64,000 nt of DNA from Natronorubrum aibiense. GTDB lineage: Archaea > Halobacteriota > Halobacteria > Halobacteriales > Natrialbaceae. Shown here one piece after another: positions 54,956 to 64,000 of this stretch (its first letter is position 1; the number at the start of each line of letters is the position of its first letter). Made by a program: the position numbers and the translations under genes. The notes below the pieces were generated by a model. It ran no database searches. It was not told the DNA's origin and saw only the letters and a list, made by a program, of their open reading frames with translations. The DNA lies in contig NZ_CP045488.1 of NCBI RefSeq assembly GCF_009392895.1, forward strand, positions 2,728,001 through 2,792,000, read 5' to 3'.

Positions 54956-55582
54956 CTACTCGGCGCATCTCGCGATCCGGGCGTCCCCCGAGAGCGCGTC
55001 GACGTGGACGTGGACGGTCGACCCGTCGGTTTCGAACGGGACGATCCAAGAGGCGCTCGTTCGATGTGGTTCCTCGATCACCGTCGGCTCGTCCGCCTCG
55101 ACCGCGTCGGCCTCGGCTGCGAGGGTTTTGCGGGCGATCCGTTCGGCCTCTGCGGCGTCGGTGATCCGTATCTCGTCGGTCAGGCGGACGGTCACGACCG
55201 GGACGTCGGCCATGCGAACGACGCGTTCGGTGACGCTGCCGACCAGCACCCGATCGAGGCCGGTTCGGCCCTGTGTCCCCATGACGATCATGTCGACGTC
55301 GTGCTCATCAGCGTACTCGAGAATGACCTCGTGTGGGACCCCCTGTTCGACCGCCGTGACGGCCTCGACGCCGTCTCGAGTCGCTTCGGCCTCGATTCGC
55401 TCGACAGCGCGGTGGGCGGCGGGTGTCGCGGCGTCGTTCTGGAGCGTCCCGAGTGGCCCTTCGGGGACGACCGAGAGGGCGTGAATCGTCGCCCCGAATC
55501 GGTCCGCAATCGTCAGGCCGTGCGTGATCGACTGGCGCGTTCCGTCGCTCCCGTCCGTCGGAATGAGGACGTCCTGATACAT
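54956..55582 (-). CDS. Universal stress protein with C-terminal extension
   Basis: A 208-residue UspA-family protein. The N-terminal 140 residues hold the ATP-binding features: VLIPTDGSDGTRQSI at the start and VMGTQGRTGLDRVLVGSVTERVVRMADVPVV (the G-x2-G-x9-G-S/T phosphate loop). About 65 residues follow (ADAVEADEPTVIEEPHRTSASWIVPFETDGSTVHVHVDAL), a haloarchaeal add-on not present in the minimal Usp fold. It is divergent from the acyl-CoA ligase gene. Its exact stress role is not defined. Confidence 0.9.
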   Translation of the reverse strand: MYQDVLIPTDGSDGTRQSITHGLTIADRFGATIHALSVVPEGPLGTLQNDAATPAAHRAVERIEAEATRDGVEAVTAVEQGVPHEVILEYADEHDVDMIVMGTQGRTGLDRVLVGSVTERVVRMADVPVVTVRLTDEIRITDAAEAERIARKTLAAEADAVEADEPTVIEEPHRTSASWIVPFETDGSTVHVHVDALSGDARIARCAE

Positions 55583-55740
55583 TACTGTGGGGTTGGGAGC
55601 ACGAACGTAATAGCGTGCCGGCTACATTCGGTGGACACTCGCAGACGAACCCTCCGTCCCAGCAACTGATCGGTGCCCTACTCGAGAACCGGGCAACCCC
55701 GATGCCCTTTGGTAATCCTTTTTACGGTACATGAAAACGT

Positions 55741-57351
55741 ATGCCACGGAGCATGACAAATCTTGTCACAAATCTCGCGGCCGCCGTCGAGAAGTACGGC
55801 AAACAGACCGCGGTTGGCTATCAGGGGACTGAAACGAGTTACGAGGAGTTCTGGGGACAGACGGGGGCGTTCGCGGCGGCGCTCGACGCCTGCGGCGTCG
55901 GTGGCGGCGATCGGGTCGCGATCTATCTGCCGAACGTCCCGCCGTTTCTGATCGCGTTCCACGGGACGCTTCGGGCCGGCGGGGTCGTCGTCCCGATGAA
56001 CCCGCAGTATAAAGCCCGCGAGATCAGCCATCTGCTCGGCGACAGCGAGGCGTCGGTAGTCGTCACGCTTTCGGATCTCGTCCCGTTCGTCGATGCTGTC
56101 CGGGACGAGACCAGCGTCGAGCACGTCGTCAGTGTCGACGGCGACGCGGAGGGTGCAACCGCACTCGAGGCCTTTCTCGAGCCCGGCGACCCCGACATCG
56201 TCGAGCGAGCCGACGACGACGTGGCCGTCCAGCCCTATACGTCAGGAACGACCGGGCAGCCAAAGGGCGTCCAGCTTACTCACAACAATCTCGCGTCGAA
56301 CGCTCAGTCCGCAGGGGAACTCATTCCGGACGGGATCCGATCAGATGACAAACAGCTCGGCGTCCTCCCGCTGTTTCACATCTACGGCATGACCGTCGTG
56401 ATGAACGCGACGCTGTTCAACGGTGGCGCGTTTTACCCGTTGCCGTCGTGGGACGCCCAGGAGGCCGTCTCACTCATCGAAAACGAGGAGTTGACGCTGA
56501 TGCACGGCGTGCCGGCGATGTACAACGACGTCATCAATCAGCCGAACGCCGAGGAGTTCGACCTCTCGTCGCTACGGCTGTGTGGCGTCGGCGGCGCCGG
56601 CATCCCCGTCGAGGTACTGCGTCGGTTCGAAGAACTGTACGAGCCGAAGGTCTACGAGGGCTACGGGCTGACCGAGACGAGCCCGGTTACGCACTTCAAC
56701 AGCCCGGTCAAAGGCCGCCGCGTCGGTAGCATCGGCAAACCAGTCCCCGGTGTCGACTCGAGGGTCGTCGACGGCGATTTCGAGGACGTCGCACCAGTCG
56801 AGCAGGGACCAGTCGATGAAGACGAAACGGATCTCGACGAAATCACCGGCGAAATCGTCGTCGCCGGGCCGAACGTCATGAAAGGCTACTACGGGCTGCC
56901 CGAGGCCAACGAGGAAGTGTTCACCGAGGACGACGGCCGAACGTGGTTCCACACGGGTGACCTGGGCTATCGCGACGAAGACGGCTTCTTCTACGTTGTC
57001 GACCGGGAGAAACACATGATCGTCACCGGCGGCTACAACGTCTACCCACGGGAAGTCGAGGAATTGCTCTTCGAACACGAGGCGGTTGCCGACGCCGCCG
57101 TCGCCGGGATTCCGGACGAACGCCGCGGTGAGACGGTCAAGGCGTTCGTCGTTCCCACGCCCGACGCGGAGATCACGGAAGACGAACTCAAAGAGTACTG
57201 CCTGACAAACCTCGCGGAGTACAAACATCCCCGTGAGATCGAGTTCGTCGAGGAGCTTCCGCGGACGACGACGGGGAAGGTCCAGAAATTCAAACTCCGC
57301 GAACGAGAGGAGAGTGCGGAGGATACGGAGCCGGAAACGGAGGCCGAGTGA
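55741..57351 (+). CDS. Acyl-CoA ligase (AMP-forming, long/medium-chain)
   Basis: A 536-residue member of the adenylate-forming family, which activates carboxylic acids with ATP and CoA. The AMP-binding motif YTSGTTGQPKG is at residues 166-176, YEGYGLTETSP is the second core, and the hinge region TGDLGYRDEDGFFYVVDREKHMIVTGGYNVYPREVE precedes the C-terminal lysine in PRTTTGKVQKFKL, the adenylating residue. An in-frame ATG four codons downstream is also possible. The next gene overlaps it by one nt (TGATG), an enoyl-CoA hydratase, so both act in fatty-acid or related acyl-CoA metabolism. Confidence 0.93.
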   Translation: MPRSMTNLVTNLAAAVEKYGKQTAVGYQGTETSYEEFWGQTGAFAAALDACGVGGGDRVAIYLPNVPPFLIAFHGTLRAGGVVVPMNPQYKAREISHLLGDSEASVVVTLSDLVPFVDAVRDETSVEHVVSVDGDAEGATALEAFLEPGDPDIVERADDDVAVQPYTSGTTGQPKGVQLTHNNLASNAQSAGELIPDGIRSDDKQLGVLPLFHIYGMTVVMNATLFNGGAFYPLPSWDAQEAVSLIENEELTLMHGVPAMYNDVINQPNAEEFDLSSLRLCGVGGAGIPVEVLRRFEELYEPKVYEGYGLTETSPVTHFNSPVKGRRVGSIGKPVPGVDSRVVDGDFEDVAPVEQGPVDEDETDLDEITGEIVVAGPNVMKGYYGLPEANEEVFTEDDGRTWFHTGDLGYRDEDGFFYVVDREKHMIVTGGYNVYPREVEELLFEHEAVADAAVAGIPDERRGETVKAFVVPTPDAEITEDELKEYCLTNLAEYKHPREIEFVEELPRTTTGKVQKFKLREREESAEDTEPETEAE

Positions 57352-58151
57352 TGGCTCTCGGTGACGCCGTTCAGCTTGAGCTCGATGCAGACGGTCCGGC
57401 AACGATCACGCTCGATCAGCCCGAGCGGCGCAACGCCCTCTCGGAGGCGATCGCCGCCGGCATTTCGGCTGCCCTCGATGAGATCGAGGGCAGCGACGCT
57501 CGCTGTGTGCTCCTCGAGGGGTCGGGCGGGTCGTTTTCGGCCGGCGGCGACATCGAGCGGATGATCAAGGGGATCCAGACCGACGCGCCGATCGACGAGC
57601 GCGTGCGCGCCCTCGAGCGATCGACGAACGAACTGATCGGCCGGCTGGTGTCGTTTCCCATTCCGACGATTGCGCTCGTCGACGGGGCTGCCGTCGGCGC
57701 TGGCGCGAACCTCGCGCTCGCGTGTGACATGCAACTGGCGAGCGAACGGGCCGCCTTCGGCTTCGTCTTCCGGCAGGTCGGGCTGAGCGTCGACGCCGGC
57801 ACCTCCTACCTGCTCCCGCGCGTCGTCGGCGAGAACGTTGCCAAAGAACTCGTCCTCACGGGCGACATTATCGGGGCCGATCGGGCGCACGAGCTCGGCC
57901 TCGTAAATCACGTCTACGACGCAGACGAGTTCGACGAGGCCGTCGAGACGTTCGTCGAGAAGATTACCTCTGGCCCACCGGTCGCGCTGCGCCACGCCAA
58001 CCGACTGCTCGGCGAGGGCCTCGAGAAATCGCTCGAGCAGGCGTTGACCGACGAAGCGGTCGCACAGGGCATCGCGTTCGACACCGACGATCACGAGGAG
58101 GGCGTGACCGCTTTCCTCGAGGACCGCGATCCCGAGTTCGAGGGACGCTAA
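57351..58151 (+). CDS. Enoyl-CoA hydratase/isomerase family protein
   Basis: A 266-residue crotonase-fold protein. The oxyanion-hole and CoA-binding stretches are GGSFSAGGDIERM (residues about 62-74) and VDGAAVGAGANLALACDMQLAS (about 105-126), with the FGFVFRQVGLSVDAGTSYLLPR segment following. Of the two catalytic glutamates of true hydratases, neither is clearly present at the expected places (VGAGANLAL lacks the first, and QVGLSVDAG has Asp), so it may be an isomerase or another crotonase activity. It overlaps the acyl-CoA ligase by one nt. Confidence 0.88.
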   Translation: MALGDAVQLELDADGPATITLDQPERRNALSEAIAAGISAALDEIEGSDARCVLLEGSGGSFSAGGDIERMIKGIQTDAPIDERVRALERSTNELIGRLVSFPIPTIALVDGAAVGAGANLALACDMQLASERAAFGFVFRQVGLSVDAGTSYLLPRVVGENVAKELVLTGDIIGADRAHELGLVNHVYDADEFDEAVETFVEKITSGPPVALRHANRLLGEGLEKSLEQALTDEAVAQGIAFDTDDHEEGVTAFLEDRDPEFEGR

Positions 58152-58217
58152 CGTCGGCCACAGTCCGTTGGGACAAGCGACGACCGGCGACGAGGAGGCG
58201 ACTCGAGCCCGAGTTGC

Positions 58218-58673
58218 TTACTCGCTGTGGGCGACTCCCGTCCCGACCGAAACGAGCGTCGACACCCGCGCGTTCTCCTTGATTTCGAGGCCACCGTCGG
58301 CGACCGACAACGGGAGCAGCGGCAAGTGGTCTCGGACCTGCACTGACGGATGAGAGCCGCCGCGAGCGAGCAGTTCGTTGCGCGGCTGGAGCTGCAGTGG
58401 CTCGTCGAGGCCAGTCAGGAACTCGTTGTGCTGGATGACGTATTGGCCCCCTTCGAGGTGCCACCAGCCGAACTCGTCGTCGGGGTCGTAGAGGTCGGTC
58501 GCGATGGGCTCGAGGTCGGCGTCCTCGAGTTCGTCACCGCCGAAATCGAGTCGGCCGGGTGCAGTGACCTCGTACACCGCGCTGACGGTCAGATCGATGC
58601 CGTGGTCGTGAATCTGTGCCGGTTCGTACACGAGATTGTCGACGGCGTCGGCGAGTGGATTTTCGGCAGACAT
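58218..58673 (-). CDS. dCTP deaminase/dUTPase-fold protein (divergent)
   Basis: A 151-residue protein whose central QYVIQHNEFLTGLDEPLQLQPRNELLARGG segment matches the dCTP deaminase and dUTPase fold, followed by the LPLSVADGGLEIKENARVST region. The usual catalytic motif (A-R-S-S-x-x-R/G-x-G and the downstream loop) is altered here to PRNELLARGGSHPS, so nucleotide hydrolysis or deamination is not assured. The ATG at 58673 is chosen over a longer frame to 58868 that crosses the MOSC promoter. It is divergent from the MOSC gene. Confidence 0.7.
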   Translation of the reverse strand: MSAENPLADAVDNLVYEPAQIHDHGIDLTVSAVYEVTAPGRLDFGGDELEDADLEPIATDLYDPDDEFGWWHLEGGQYVIQHNEFLTGLDEPLQLQPRNELLARGGSHPSVQVRDHLPLLPLSVADGGLEIKENARVSTLVSVGTGVAHSE

Positions 58674-58855
58674 TTCGGTTGTCCTGACGGTTTCGAGTGG
58701 CAAAAACGTGTCCTCGAGCGGAACGCGGTAGCAGAACCGGCAGGCGACTGACCGGCGGTGGGGCAGAGCGCGAAAGGCGACGGCATTCGGGTCTGCAGAC
58801 GAGGCAAGCGACCGAACGGATACACATATGCATCGCCGCCGCGACGGCACGCACA

Positions 58856-59698
58856 ATGGCACAGCCACAGCTCGCGTCCATCCGTGTCCATCCGATCAAG
58901 TCCCTCGGAGGGGTGTCGGTCACCGAGGCCGAGATCGTCGACAACGGCGGCCTATCGTGGGATCGACGGTACGCGATCGTCGAACAGTCGCCGGAGGGGA
59001 CGACAGGGACCGAGCCAGGCGGCCGGTACGTCAACGGGAAACGGGAGCGCCGAATCCACGGCCTCGAGGCGACGTACGATCTCGACCGCGAGACGGTTTC
59101 CATCGGGGAACGCGACAGCGACGAGCGTCACACGTTCCACCTCGACCTCGACCGTGACTGTTTCACGTCGTGGCTTTCTGACTTCTTCGGCTATCCGGTC
59201 GATCTCGTTCGCGACGACGAGGGCGGGTTCCCGGACGATACGGATGCCACGGGACCGACAGTGATCAGTACGGGCACGCTCGAGGCCGTCGCCTCGTGGT
59301 ACGAGGGGATCGACGCCGACGAGATGTGTCGGCGGCTCCGTCCGAATCTGGTCCTCGAGGCACCTGCGTTCTGGGAGGATCGCCTCTACGAGGCACCCGG
59401 ACAGGTCGTCCCCTTCGAGGTCGGCTCAGCGACGTTGCAGGGCGTCAATCCGTGTCAACGGTGTGTCGTTCCGACCCGCGATCCCGACACCGGCGAACCG
59501 ACCGACGGATTTCGGGAGACGTTCGTCGAGCAACGGGCAGCGACGCTCCCCGAGTGGGCGAGCGAGGACTGGTTCGATCACTACTTCCGGCTGATGGTGA
59601 ACACGCACGTGCCCGACGCTTCGTGGGGGACGACGCTCGCCGTCGGCGACCGCGTGACCGTCGACAAATCGACGGTCGATCCGAAGTCAGTCGACTGA
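58856..59698 (+). CDS. MOSC domain-containing protein
   Basis: A 280-residue protein with an N-terminal MOSC-N beta-barrel (IRVHPIKSLGGVSVTEAEIVDNGGLSWDRRYAIVE, residues about 7-41) and a C-terminal MOSC domain (about 135-275). The conserved cysteine predicted to bind sulfur or molybdenum cofactor is in GVNPCQRCVVPTRDPDTGE. These proteins are thought to carry sulfur or use Moco, as in mitochondrial amidoxime reductases. The ATG at 58856 starts family similarity; the reading frame upstream is unrelated. Substrate not known. Confidence 0.9.
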   Translation: MAQPQLASIRVHPIKSLGGVSVTEAEIVDNGGLSWDRRYAIVEQSPEGTTGTEPGGRYVNGKRERRIHGLEATYDLDRETVSIGERDSDERHTFHLDLDRDCFTSWLSDFFGYPVDLVRDDEGGFPDDTDATGPTVISTGTLEAVASWYEGIDADEMCRRLRPNLVLEAPAFWEDRLYEAPGQVVPFEVGSATLQGVNPCQRCVVPTRDPDTGEPTDGFRETFVEQRAATLPEWASEDWFDHYFRLMVNTHVPDASWGTTLAVGDRVTVDKSTVDPKSVD

Positions 59699-59799
59699 TC
59701 CCGAAGATCCCGTCACCGCCGGCGAGTCGACTGCGGCTGGTTTTCAGTTCTGGTACTCACGGGTAAAACGCAAAGAGGGCGCTCCGGCTTTCGGTGGGC

Positions 59800-62214
59800 A
59801 TGAACTACGGTCTCGATATCGAGCCCGATGGGATCCGGGTCGCTACCGATACGGCGGATGGGGTGGACCTCGAGTCGGTACCAACCCTCACGGCTCCGAC
59901 AGACGCGGAGCCGACTTTGGCGACGGACACTGACCCGAACTCCGGTGACTCGCTGCTCTCGAACGGCGTATTGATGACGGACGACGACGCCGAGGAGACA
60001 CTCGAAGCGCTGCTCGAGGACGTCCTCGGCCCCGACGCCGCTGACGACGGTCGACTCTGTTATACGACGTCCGGGACGGTGGTCGACGGAGCCGAACCGA
60101 TCGATGCCCGTCGCGACGCCGTCGCCTCGGTTGTTGACGACTGGGGGCTCGAGGCGACGCCGATCAACAGCGGGTTCGCCGTCGTCTACGACCAGTTCGC
60201 CGACGACAACTACACTGGCCTCGGTGTCCGGATCGGCCCGCAGACGACGAGCGTCGCGCTCGCATACTATGGCGTGCCCGCGGTGTCGTGTTCACTCGCG
60301 AAGGGCAGCGAGTGGGTCATCGACCGGGCGGCCGACGACACGGGACGGGACCCGGCACAGGTCACCACCGTACTCGAGTCGTTCGTGTTCGACCCCGACG
60401 CGGCGACGGACGAAATCGAAGCCGCACTCGCGACAGCGTTCGACGCGCTGGTCGGTGACCTCGCCGACACACTCGAGCGCGAAGCCGGCGAGGCCGACAT
60501 CCAGCGAGGGCTGGCCGTCCCGCTCACCGTTGCGGGGTCGGGCGCGGTGGCGGGTCTCGAGTACCTGATAGCGGGACGGTTCGACAGCGCGCTGCCGATT
60601 TCAGTCCGCGATCCGCGACGTGCCGACGAGCCGGCCGCAAGCGCTGCCAGAGGGGCCCTTGAAGCCGCGAAAGACGGCGTCGAGGGCCACGATGCCGTGG
60701 CGTGGTCGCCAACCGACGCGACCGACGGCGACAAGAACGACGGGTTCACGACCGTGACTGAACCGACCGGCGAGATGACGCTGACGTTCGACGACTCGCT
60801 CGAGGACAGCGCCGAGACGGACCGCGCTCGAGCCGACGACGCGATCGAGCAGTTGTTCGATCGACTCGCGGACCGAGACGACGAGATCCTGTCGATCCGG
60901 GCCGACCTCGAGACGGTGAGCGATGCCCTCGACGACCTCGATGCACGGGCGGCCAACGCCGATGCAGTTAGGGCCTTGGAAGCCACTCTCGAGGGGCTCG
61001 AAGACGACCTGATCGCGCTCGAAGCCGAAAGCGAGCGCTACGCGAGCGGAGAGGTAGTTTCGAGCCTCGAGGACGACTTCGACGTCCTTTCGACCGCGTT
61101 CGACAGGCACCGAGCCGACGTCGACGAACTCGAGTCGGCGATGAACGACGAGTTCGACACATTCGAGGCGTCGATCGAGGCCCTCGAGACGACGACAGCG
61201 GACGAACAAGCGGTGCTCGATGCCCGAATCGGAGACCTTGTGGCCGATCTCGATGAAATCATCGCGGACACGAACACGCTCGACGAGCGCCTCGAGTCGC
61301 TTCAATCCGAGCAGGAATCGCTCGAGACGATGGCTGCATCGGCAGCCGACCTCGATGCCGTCACGGAAACCGTCTCGCGGTTCGAAGACGAACTCGGGGC
61401 CGTCGACGAGACCATCGACCGACTCGGAACGCGAGCCGACGGGTTCGCTGGTCGACTCGAGGAACAGGCGATCCAGCTCGACGACGTTGACGATCGGCTT
61501 ACGGCCCGCGCGGAACAAGCCGACGAAGAACGGAAACAACTCGGAGACGACATCGAGGCAGTCGAAGCGGCGCTCGAGGCGGAACTCGGTGCTCTCGAGC
61601 GTGACTTCGAGACGCTCGAGCGGCGATTCGACGAACTCGACGACACGGTTACCGAGCGGATCGACACACTCGCAGCCGACCGCGACGAGCCAGTCAGCGA
61701 ACTTCGGGCGGCGATCGACGCCCGTCTCGACACGCTCGAGGCGGAACTCGAAGCCGTCGCGGACACTGAGGATCGAACCAACCGACTCGATGATCGGATG
61801 AGCGATCACGCGACTCGTCTCGAAACGCACGCCGAAACGCTCGAGGACTACGACGGCCGCCTCAAGTCGCTTACAACCGACGTCGCCGACCTCGCGGCGA
61901 CGCTCGACGGAGCTGACAAATCGAGTGAGGCGCAGCTATCGTCGATCGAAACGCGCGTGGACGAACTCGAGGCCAGAGTTGAAACCGACCGGGAGGATGA
62001 TCCCGAGGCGATTCGGGCAGAGCTCGAAACGGTGCAAGATCGACTCGAGATCGACGACGCCCCGTCTTTCGGCGCGCAACTCGCTACCGGTGGAGGCAGT
62101 GCCGGCGTCGTCGCTGGGAGCGTCGCTGCGCTTACGGGTGCGGTGACCATTGGGGCCGCTGCGGCCGTCCTCGGGCTCGTCGTGATCGCCGTGGTGGTCG
62201 GACACGAGCGCTAA
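59800..62214 (+). CDS. Actin/MreB-like ASKHA domain fused to a long coiled coil and C-terminal membrane anchor
   Basis: An 804-residue protein. Residues 1-290 resemble the ASKHA fold of MreB, FtsA and Hsp70: the N-terminal YGLDIEPDGIRVATD (phosphate 1), NSGFAVVYDQFADD (connect-1, 123-136), GLGVRIGPQTTSVALAYYG (phosphate 2, 140-158, with Arg in place of the usual Asp) and LTVAGSGAVAGLEYLIAG (adenosine motif, 242-259). Residues about 340-755 are a continuous coiled coil of heptads rich in Leu, Glu, Asp and Ala. Residues about 768-800 form a glycine/alanine-rich hydrophobic helix next to the C-terminal GHER, so the protein should be tail-anchored. A GTG two codons upstream is less likely the start. 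The ASKHA assignment is inference from motifs. Confidence 0.8.
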   Translation: MNYGLDIEPDGIRVATDTADGVDLESVPTLTAPTDAEPTLATDTDPNSGDSLLSNGVLMTDDDAEETLEALLEDVLGPDAADDGRLCYTTSGTVVDGAEPIDARRDAVASVVDDWGLEATPINSGFAVVYDQFADDNYTGLGVRIGPQTTSVALAYYGVPAVSCSLAKGSEWVIDRAADDTGRDPAQVTTVLESFVFDPDAATDEIEAALATAFDALVGDLADTLEREAGEADIQRGLAVPLTVAGSGAVAGLEYLIAGRFDSALPISVRDPRRADEPAASAARGALEAAKDGVEGHDAVAWSPTDATDGDKNDGFTTVTEPTGEMTLTFDDSLEDSAETDRARADDAIEQLFDRLADRDDEILSIRADLETVSDALDDLDARAANADAVRALEATLEGLEDDLIALEAESERYASGEVVSSLEDDFDVLSTAFDRHRADVDELESAMNDEFDTFEASIEALETTTADEQAVLDARIGDLVADLDEIIADTNTLDERLESLQSEQESLETMAASAADLDAVTETVSRFEDELGAVDETIDRLGTRADGFAGRLEEQAIQLDDVDDRLTARAEQADEERKQLGDDIEAVEAALEAELGALERDFETLERRFDELDDTVTERIDTLAADRDEPVSELRAAIDARLDTLEAELEAVADTEDRTNRLDDRMSDHATRLETHAETLEDYDGRLKSLTTDVADLAATLDGADKSSEAQLSSIETRVDELEARVETDREDDPEAIRAELETVQDRLEIDDAPSFGAQLATGGGSAGVVAGSVAALTGAVTIGAAAAVLGLVVIAVVVGHER

Positions 62215-62292
62215 TCGAGGTGGCTGTACGGGGGTGACGTAACAGCCCGATGGCCCACGGCGGGATCCTCGTGCTTCAGCGCGGAGAAGCTG

Positions 62293-62424
62293 TTACCCTC
62301 GTATCAACTCGACGTTTCGCATCTCACCCCCGCAGCGTCGGCAGGTACTGAGAAGTGCATCCGCGACCGTCTCCCGGCGGCCACAGACGACACACTCGTA
62401 CTCGATTGGTTCAGCAACAGACAT
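62293..62424 (-). CDS. Rubrerythrin-like (DUF7129) small zinc-ribbon protein
   Basis: A 43-residue haloarchaeal protein with two CxxC pairs, CVVC (residues 11-14) and CRRC (28-31), separated by 13 residues, and an acidic N-terminus MSVAEPIEYE. The pattern is that of a rubredoxin- or zinc-ribbon-like knuckle; family members are often called rubrerythrin-like but have no ferritin domain. A palindrome (caccac-gtat-gtggtg, 62427-62442) lies directly upstream of the start codon. The ATG at 62424 is the only sensible one. Confidence 0.75.
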   Translation of the reverse strand: MSVAEPIEYECVVCGRRETVADALLSTCRRCGGEMRNVELIRG

Positions 62425-62426
62425 GA

Positions 62427-62442
62427 CACCACGTATGTGGTG
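62427..62442. promoter_or_regulatory. Palindrome immediately upstream of the rubrerythrin-like gene
   Basis: The perfect inverted repeat caccac-gtat-gtggtg lies 3-18 nt before the ATG (minus strand), between the TATA-like ttaacata (about 62446-62453) and the start codon. Its position suits a repressor operator. Confidence 0.4.
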
Positions 62443-62515
62443 AAGTATGTTAACTCTTTTCGTGGTAAAGCATGGGTAGGACTGTGGCCGCACGCATCGA
62501 GCGTGCAACGGCTCA

Positions 62516-63718
62516 CTAGAGGAGCCAGAGCGCGATCCCGAGTCCCGTCGCAGCGACGATTGTGGCCGCGAGCAGCCAGAACGCAGCCCGGAAACCGACG
62601 GTCTCCGAGAGCGTGCCGACGATTGCGGGTGCGACCGCGCCAGCTCCCATCAACATCGTTCGGACGACGCCCAGTCCGCCACCGGCGACATCGTCGGGAA
62701 TGGTCGACATCAGGTACGCCCCCCGGACGGGTCGAAAACCGTGTGAACCGACGCCGACGGCGACGAGCGCAGCGCCGAGGACGACCGGACCGGCCGTACC
62801 AGTCAGCGAGATGAACGCGATCAGCGCGAGCGAGGCAAGTCCCAACGTCGCGACGATGATCGGCAGTTGGCCGATTCGGTCGCTGAGATCTCCCGTGACG
62901 AGTTGAACCAGACTCGCGAGAAAGAGCGCACTGTAAAGTACGCCCGCGACTGCGTCCGTCAGTCCGGCCGTCTGCGTGAGATACAGCGGGGCGAACGCGA
63001 CGAACCCGTTGTAGGTGAACGAAAACAGGATCGTCAAGAGGGCAAACAGCGAGAATCGCCAGTCCCGAAAGAGCGTGACGTACTGGCTGACGCCGACGGC
63101 TGTGGTCGCAGTCGACGAGACATTACCTTCGGATTCTTCCGGAAGGCGTCGTGGGACCCGAATTCGGAACGCGATGGCGAGGCCGAGTCCGATCAGCCCG
63201 GCAAGCAGAAAGACAAGCCGCCAACTGTCTCCGAGTCCGAACGAAACGCCTGCAACAGCGACGACGGCGGCAGGTGCGATCACGCCGCCGAACGCACCGA
63301 ACGTGTCGAGGATTCCGAGCGCCCGGCCGGTTCGGGACGGGTACGCTCGAGACAGCAACCGGACGGCGACAGTCTTGTGCGCGCCAGTTCCGGCACCCAT
63401 CACGAGCATCGCCCCGACGAGGACGAGAAACGGGGAGTCGACGGCGAGTGCGAGCGCCGCGACGGCCGCGACGAGCGCACCGGCGGTAATAACGACGATC
63501 GAACCGAGTCGATCGGCGAGCACCCCCGAGGGAAACTGCATCACAGCGTAGGCGAGCATGAATCCGGTAAACACCGTCCCGAGGATCGAGTTCGAGACGC
63601 CGTAACTCGCCTGAAACGAGCCGAACAGCGGCGGAAACGCGTACCGAAGAAACTTCCCGAGAAACCAGATCGCCGCCGTCACCACGAGCACATCGTACTG
63701 TGTGAGCCGGCCAGCCAT
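62516..63718 (-). CDS. Major facilitator superfamily transporter
   Basis: A 400-residue transporter with 12 predicted helices. Visible are the first helix LTQYDVLVVTAAIWFLGKFLRYAFPPLFGSF, the loop 2-3 GxLADRxG motif in PSGVLADRLGSIVVI, and the central charged loop IRVPRRLPEESEGNVSSTATTA that divides two halves. The ATG at 63718 begins helix 1; the longer frame to 63799 does not add a helix. Substrate unknown; the sequence resembles sugar-phosphate or nitrate-type MFS members only weakly. Confidence 0.86.
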   Translation of the reverse strand: MAGRLTQYDVLVVTAAIWFLGKFLRYAFPPLFGSFQASYGVSNSILGTVFTGFMLAYAVMQFPSGVLADRLGSIVVITAGALVAAVAALALAVDSPFLVLVGAMLVMGAGTGAHKTVAVRLLSRAYPSRTGRALGILDTFGAFGGVIAPAAVVAVAGVSFGLGDSWRLVFLLAGLIGLGLAIAFRIRVPRRLPEESEGNVSSTATTAVGVSQYVTLFRDWRFSLFALLTILFSFTYNGFVAFAPLYLTQTAGLTDAVAGVLYSALFLASLVQLVTGDLSDRIGQLPIIVATLGLASLALIAFISLTGTAGPVVLGAALVAVGVGSHGFRPVRGAYLMSTIPDDVAGGGLGVVRTMLMGAGAVAPAIVGTLSETVGFRAAFWLLAATIVAATGLGIALWLL

Positions 63719-64000
63719 CGTGCGAATCGACGCGTCGTTCACGCTCGGCAGTAGGTCAGTGGACGAACGAATACGCTCCGATTCGAGACTCGAGCGCACC
63801 CGGATACGGACGCCGGTCCCTCAGAGCCGGTGTGCTCGCAGGACGGTCGCCGTTGCACCGGGACATCGATACAACGGACAGCTGAATCGAATCCGACGTA
63901 TGGCCGAACGCCACCGACCCCGCGCTCGAGTGGTCGCGGAATCCATATCGCTTCCAACACACGAAAATAGATACTAATGAGGTTAAATATCACACAGGTG
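63719..64000. other. Terminal region with a possible gene start at the window edge
   Basis: No complete gene is seen. At 63977 an ATG follows an AT-rich aaaatagatacta; the short frame MRLNITQV continues to the end of the window and could be the start of a gene beyond it, but nothing supports it besides position. Confidence 0.3.

Follow-up and report, generated by a model that had tools for sequence, protein, structure and literature searches.

A long, putatively membrane-anchored paralogue of the archaeal actin volactin in Natronorubrum aibiense

Coding sequence and domain architecture

A stretch of 64,000 nucleotides of the Natronorubrum aibiense genome (contig NZ_CP045488.1, positions 2,728,001 to 2,792,000; referred to as the window) contains a gene of which the product appears to combine an actin-like N-terminal part with a long coiled coil and a hydrophobic C-terminus. 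This raises the question to which actin family such a protein belongs, whether its nucleotide site could still sustain a filament cycle, and what an actin fold may do on a predicted membrane anchor. The coding sequence started with ATG at position 59800 and its stop codon ended at position 62214 of the forward strand (804 codons), in agreement with a first-pass annotation made from the sequence alone. The following features were distinguished:

59741..59758, forward strand: conserved upstream element TTTTCAGTTCTGGTACTC, 18 bases, with about 40 bp between it and the start codon
59800..62214, forward strand: coding sequence of the long volactin paralogue, 804 amino acids (open reading frame and translation)
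59800..60699, forward strand: actin-fold (ASKHA) head of the Volactin family, residues 1-300 (PF25216, AlphaFold2, Foldseek)
59815..59832, forward strand: degenerate phosphate-1 loop, residues 6-11, DIEPDG (canonical DVGTMN; head alignment)
60169..60171, forward strand: connect-1 position, Ser124 (Glu in every canonical volactin; head and MreB alignments)
60229..60231, forward strand: phosphate-2 position, Arg144 (Asp in MreB, Ser in canonical volactins; head and MreB alignments)
60532..60543, forward strand: degenerate adenosine motif, residues 245-248, AGSG (canonical TGGT; head alignment)
60700..60813, forward strand: acidic disordered linker, residues 301-338 (full-length AlphaFold2 model, with a pLDDT of 31-41 for the greater part)
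60814..62046, forward strand: coiled coil, residues 339-749 (model helices and heptad statistics)
62071..62208, forward strand: predicted membrane hairpin, rich in glycine, at the extreme C-terminus, with helices at 758-778 and 782-803 (hydrophobicity, full-length model, homologues)

Hence, the head (residues 1-300) is followed by the linker (301-338), the coiled coil (339-749) and the C-terminal hairpin (758-803), and this order of head, coil and hairpin was kept in all 40 complete long copies, the window copy included. The full-length AlphaFold2 model had a mean pLDDT of 72 and a pTM of 0.45, so that the relative placement of the parts in it carries no meaning. A search of positions 55000-64000 against Rfam returned no matches.

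An actin-fold head of the Volactin family

The head, which the first-pass annotation had left unclassified, turned out to belong to a described family. Indeed, residues 48-290 matched Volactin (PF25216; model positions 75-321 of 321) with an E-value of 4.2e-88 and a score of 296 bits versus a cut-off of 35, and this was the sole family matched; the head had no match above cut-off to the MreB and FtsA family models (PF06723 and PF14450). A match to PF06723 elsewhere in the genome belonged to another gene, a 636-amino acid frame that probably encodes DnaK. Similarly, the salactin model (PF25229) had no match in the N. aibiense genome at an E-value of 0.001 and was matched weakly by two of the 46 aligned heads. 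The ASKHA fold proposed earlier for residues 1-290 was upheld by structure prediction, since the AlphaFold2 model of the head (46 aligned sequences) reached a pLDDT of 88.6 and a pTM of 0.88, and its Foldseek matches in the PDB were FtsA, PilM, MreB, Mbl, MamK and actin, with E-values down to 8.5e-13. FtsA and PilM were the best matches by E-value, and the TMq with MreB of Caulobacter (4czl) was 0.68. A viral fold library gave no lead, yielding just ASKHA matches of the Hsp70, actin-related and RuvC types.

In the alignment, roughly 27-33 residues that are present in the subdomain-IB region of most relatives were missing from the window protein. This stretch was also largely lost in the Natronorubrum thiooxidans orthologue and in two other proteins, and such a loss apparently occurred more than once among long forms. 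A lost or shortened IB stretch was seen in the window head, L037, L061 and L096, and never in the aligned canonical volactins.

The nucleotide site of the long forms

The four ASKHA motifs noted earlier were placed correctly, yet their sequences proved degenerate. The window head reads DIEPDG, NSG, GPQTT and AGSG where canonical volactins read DxGTxN, NEG, GxGxT and TGGT, respectively. All 21 haloarchaeal canonical volactins and all eight methanogen-type volactins (a label given to families f19, f21 and f22 from their place in the phylum) had the connect-1 Glu, versus none of the 55 long heads, which carry R, K, T, S, P, A or Q instead. Similarly, the phosphate-1 Asn (21/21 canonical haloarchaeal versus 0/55 long) and the second Gly of the adenosine motif (21/21 versus 1/55) separate both groups, whereas the phosphate-1 Asp and the phosphate-2 Thr are mostly retained in the long heads. 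Alignment of canonical volactin with Caulobacter MreB placed INEGMA opposite IDEPMA and ISFGAG opposite VDIGGG; the Glu of the MreB motif IDEPMA is the catalytic residue. Judged from these alignments, canonical volactins show no variation in the nucleotide site, which is eroded in the long forms.

The first-pass annotation had read Arg instead of Asp at phosphate-2 as a sign that hydrolysis may be lost. This basis does not hold, as the position is occupied by Ser in all 21 canonical haloarchaeal and all eight methanogen-type volactins, and VolA of Haloferax volcanii nevertheless forms dynamic filaments (PMC10869688). Because canonical volactins carry Ser at the same position, Arg144 is uninformative on its own. 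The idea itself is retained on other grounds, namely the absence of the connect-1 Glu, the adenosine Gly and the phosphate-1 Asn, from which we infer that the window head has lost ATP hydrolysis. The degenerate site may still be able to bind ATP.

Linker, coiled coil and predicted membrane hairpin

The head is followed by the disordered linker, of which a motif is conserved among long forms. The long coiled coil described before was borne out by heptad statistics, its start being shifted to residue 339, after this linker. In the full-length AlphaFold2 model, the helices of the coil ran from residue 339 to 732 with short breaks, and then from 735 to 749. Over residues 336-735, the excess of hydrophobic residues at the a and d positions was 0.69, versus 0.41 +/- 0.02 in shuffled sequences, and the periodicity was 101.9 degrees, or 7.07 residues per two turns. 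The heptad signal had a z value of at least 5.9 in all 40 complete long copies. The length of the coil ranged from about 100 to 890 residues across long forms, and this variation suits a spacer. Coil-library matches to SMC, Rad50, ASRP and SpiroCoCo fell far below their cut-offs and were considered compositional, and the crescentin-like model Rod_CreS (PF19220) scored an E-value of 0.029 and 13.8 bits, far below its cut-off of 100.

The C-terminus was strongly hydrophobic, with a best 19-residue Kyte-Doolittle window of 2.82 beginning 23 residues before the end of the protein. A hydrophobic anchor had been proposed before as one membrane helix (residues 768-800); the anchor stands, but two helices (758-778 and 782-803) are predicted instead, modelled at a pLDDT of about 53-70, thus with low to moderate confidence. 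As each of the 40 complete copies has two hydrophobic stretches with a short turn between them, the anchor is better read as a hairpin with both ends in the cytoplasm than as a single helix. The conservation of this hairpin points to a membrane protein, membrane insertion being predicted. Among the other proteins of the N. aibiense genome, no convincing second copy of the hairpin tail module was found. The head fold, the coil and the conserved hairpin support the earlier suggestion that a long coil links an actin-like module to the membrane.

Distribution, origin and constraint of the long form

The N. aibiense genome contains a second volactin gene about 260 kb away from the window gene; it encodes a canonical volactin of 340 residues, in an open frame of 360 amino acids. 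Some volactin match was present in 124 of 125 Natrialbaceae genomes, and the long form occurred in 88 of the 125, as an open frame of more than 500 amino acids in 87 genomes and as a fragment in one. These long-form genomes had at least two volactin matches each, and a canonical gene was found, among the matches listed, in those checked individually. Long forms also occurred in three more haloarchaeal families (f7, f10 and f3). Their presence in many genomes and in four families argues against a one-off fusion. No long form was found in the other haloarchaeal families sampled, nor was one reported, besides the canonical volactin, for the H. volcanii control genome. Outside Natrialbaceae, the long form was present in six of 54 genomes with a canonical volactin versus none of 114 without it (Fisher p=0.0009, for species that are not independent and a sample in which 15 genomes were picked for having several copies). 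Relatives of the same phylum outside the haloarchaea (f19, f21 and f22) had the form of 326-370 amino acids only. Non-haloarchaeal families of the phylum also had canonical volactins with a complete nucleotide site (L120-L128; G422, G440, G539, G425, G553 and others). Extra canonical copies occurred in G264, G320 and G342 (family f4, genus g47), G264 also having a split copy on another contig.

In a tree of 51 heads, rooted with the methanogen-type volactins, the long forms made up one group (support 99/98) and the haloarchaeal canonical volactins another (93/95), with the caution that some branches are long, above all that of the f3 member. The same division between long and canonical forms appeared in an unrooted tree with a different sampling. 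As the window protein falls outside the canonical clade of the rooted tree, it is not the orthologue of VolA. The tree indicates an ancient and single origin of the long paralogue at the base of the haloarchaea, one early duplication followed by losses being the simplest reading.

The closest copy came from the same genus, the N. thiooxidans orthologue, which is 102 residues longer than the window protein, mainly in the coil. Between both, the whole gene had a dN of 0.23 and a dS of 0.62. The head was 74% identical (dN 0.15, dS 0.55, dN/dS about 0.27) and the coil 60% identical (dN 0.28, dS 0.70, dN/dS about 0.40). Overall, the head of the long forms changes rapidly, in contrast to the nearly invariant canonical volactin.

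Comparison with known systems

The window protein shares the actin fold with volactin (VolA, HVO_2015, PF25216) of H. volcanii and belongs to the same family over residues 48-290, but it sits in a separate paralogous clade with 28-30% identity to canonical volactins, adds a coil of about 400 residues and a membrane hairpin, lacks the nucleotide-site residues and has a shortened IB region. Indeed, volactin sensu stricto is a single domain of about 340 amino acids, compared with 804 amino acids here. Salactin of Halobacterium salinarum (PF25229) is also a haloarchaeal protein with an actin fold, but of another family. MreB, MamK and FtsA have the fold in common with the window head, without a family-level sequence match, and lack the long coil and the hairpin; FtsA does tie an actin fold to the membrane, by an amphipathic helix. 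Crescentin and other coiled-coil-rich proteins share the long coil, to which the window protein adds an actin-fold head.

A coiled-coil membrane paralogue was looked for and not found in the papers on volactin and salactin and in the Science 2025 tissue paper. Within the papers searched, this fits the earlier remark that no protein with an ASKHA-coil-anchor order is known to have been described. The long-form branch is old, widespread and apparently undescribed, and its apparent absence from the usual model H. volcanii would explain why it was missed.

Proposed role and alternatives

Tentatively, we favour the window protein being a non-hydrolysing, membrane-tethered pseudo-actin that would nucleate, cap or anchor canonical volactin filaments at the membrane. 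From sequence and model, the C-terminal hairpin would sit in the cytoplasmic membrane and the coil would hold the head out in the cytoplasm, at a distance of up to about 60 nm if fully extended. Because residues invariant in canonical volactins are lost in this volactin-derived head, it most likely runs no ATPase filament cycle of its own. The head would probably join the end or side of canonical volactin filaments of the same cell and thereby serve to nucleate them at the membrane, or to cap or anchor them there. In favour of this role are the volactin head with its actin fold, the canonical gene alongside wherever checked, the erosion of the nucleotide site, the hairpin and coil retained by all 40 complete copies, and the single origin. 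The volactin filaments of H. volcanii are dynamically unstable, span the cytoplasm and contact the membrane by their tips, and volactin-binding factors have been proposed (PMC10869688). The partial loss of the IB region in the window protein and a few others suggests that classical filament contacts are not needed. Against volactin anchoring, no long form turned up in most haloarchaeal families, nor was one reported for H. volcanii, so that tip anchoring seems to be independent of it there. The genes of both paralogues are not linked, and a fast-evolving head facing a nearly invariant canonical volactin does not readily suggest a tight and conserved interface. Moreover, polymerisation is retained by proteins of the FtsA type, although these have no subdomain IB either.

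Several other explanations have to be weighed against such a volactin-anchoring pseudo-actin. The coil is the largest part of the protein, retained in every complete copy at whatever length, and together with the eroded nucleotide site this could fit a membrane-bound rod scaffold independent of volactin, in which coils pack laterally as in intermediate filaments and the head is a binding or oligomerisation module. We consider this unlikely, as the head is more constrained than the coil in the comparison with N. thiooxidans, the length variation fits a spacer better than a lattice, and the long form was not found without a canonical volactin. An adaptor of the FtsA or PilM kind, using the fold as a docking surface that brings a non-volactin partner (from the division, pilus, S-layer or DNA machinery) to the membrane, would agree with the degenerate site and with FtsA and PilM leading the Foldseek list; this is rather improbable, since fold matches mirror the superfamily, the nearest kin in sequence is volactin and not FtsA, and no conserved functional partner gene adjoins the long form, the neighbours being just MOSC and MFS genes.

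The scaffold imagined by the first-pass annotation implied a true membrane-bound actin that polymerises by ATP binding and hydrolysis. The overall intact fold of the head model and the largely retained phosphate-1 Asp and phosphate-2 Thr speak for it, but the loss of the connect-1 Glu, the second adenosine Gly and the phosphate-1 Asn, and the missing part of the IB region, make it very unlikely. Finally, fast evolution and large length changes might be expected of a decaying, functionless duplicate, but this is hardly conceivable in view of the 87 of 125 genomes with frames of more than 500 amino acids free of internal stops, the conserved upstream element, hairpin and linker motif, and dN/dS values well below 1.

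With volactin anchoring as the preferred role, it is possible, albeit quite uncertain, that duplication of volactin and fusion to the coil and hairpin gave rise, in haloarchaea, to a pseudo-actin tethered to the membrane and dedicated to nucleating or anchoring volactin filaments, in a role like that of eukaryotic actin-related or end-binding proteins. As a link between volactin and the membrane, the long paralogue is a concrete candidate that occurs widely. It also documents the early duplication of an archaeal actin, after which one copy gave up the conserved nucleotide site and acquired both spacer and anchor; such an evolutionary path is otherwise mostly discussed for eukaryotic actin-related proteins.

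Upstream element and gene neighbourhood

The upstream element TTTTCAGTTCTGGTACTC was present in nearly all aligned Natrialbaceae long-form loci, even where the upstream neighbour differed, and had a single exact match in the whole genome. Both its conservation across differing neighbours and the lack of a second exact copy make a promoter of the gene itself likely, and the element is probably a promoter or an operator. The monocistronic organisation assumed earlier agrees with such a gene-specific element. A regulon was not apparent, as no second good site occurred in the genome and none upstream of the canonical volactin gene. Long and canonical paralogues showed no gene linkage. A MOSC gene upstream and an MFS gene downstream were often conserved at long-form loci, but a pathway shared with these neighbours was rejected, as the arrangement fits inherited gene order. 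On the reverse strand, a 216-amino acid open frame without Pfam match (58218-58868) was kept in several related loci, its true start probably lying further in. Also on the reverse strand, a 43-amino acid zinc-ribbon-like small protein (62293-62424; DUF7129, E-value of 5e-9) was encoded in the space that separates the MFS transporter gene from the window gene.
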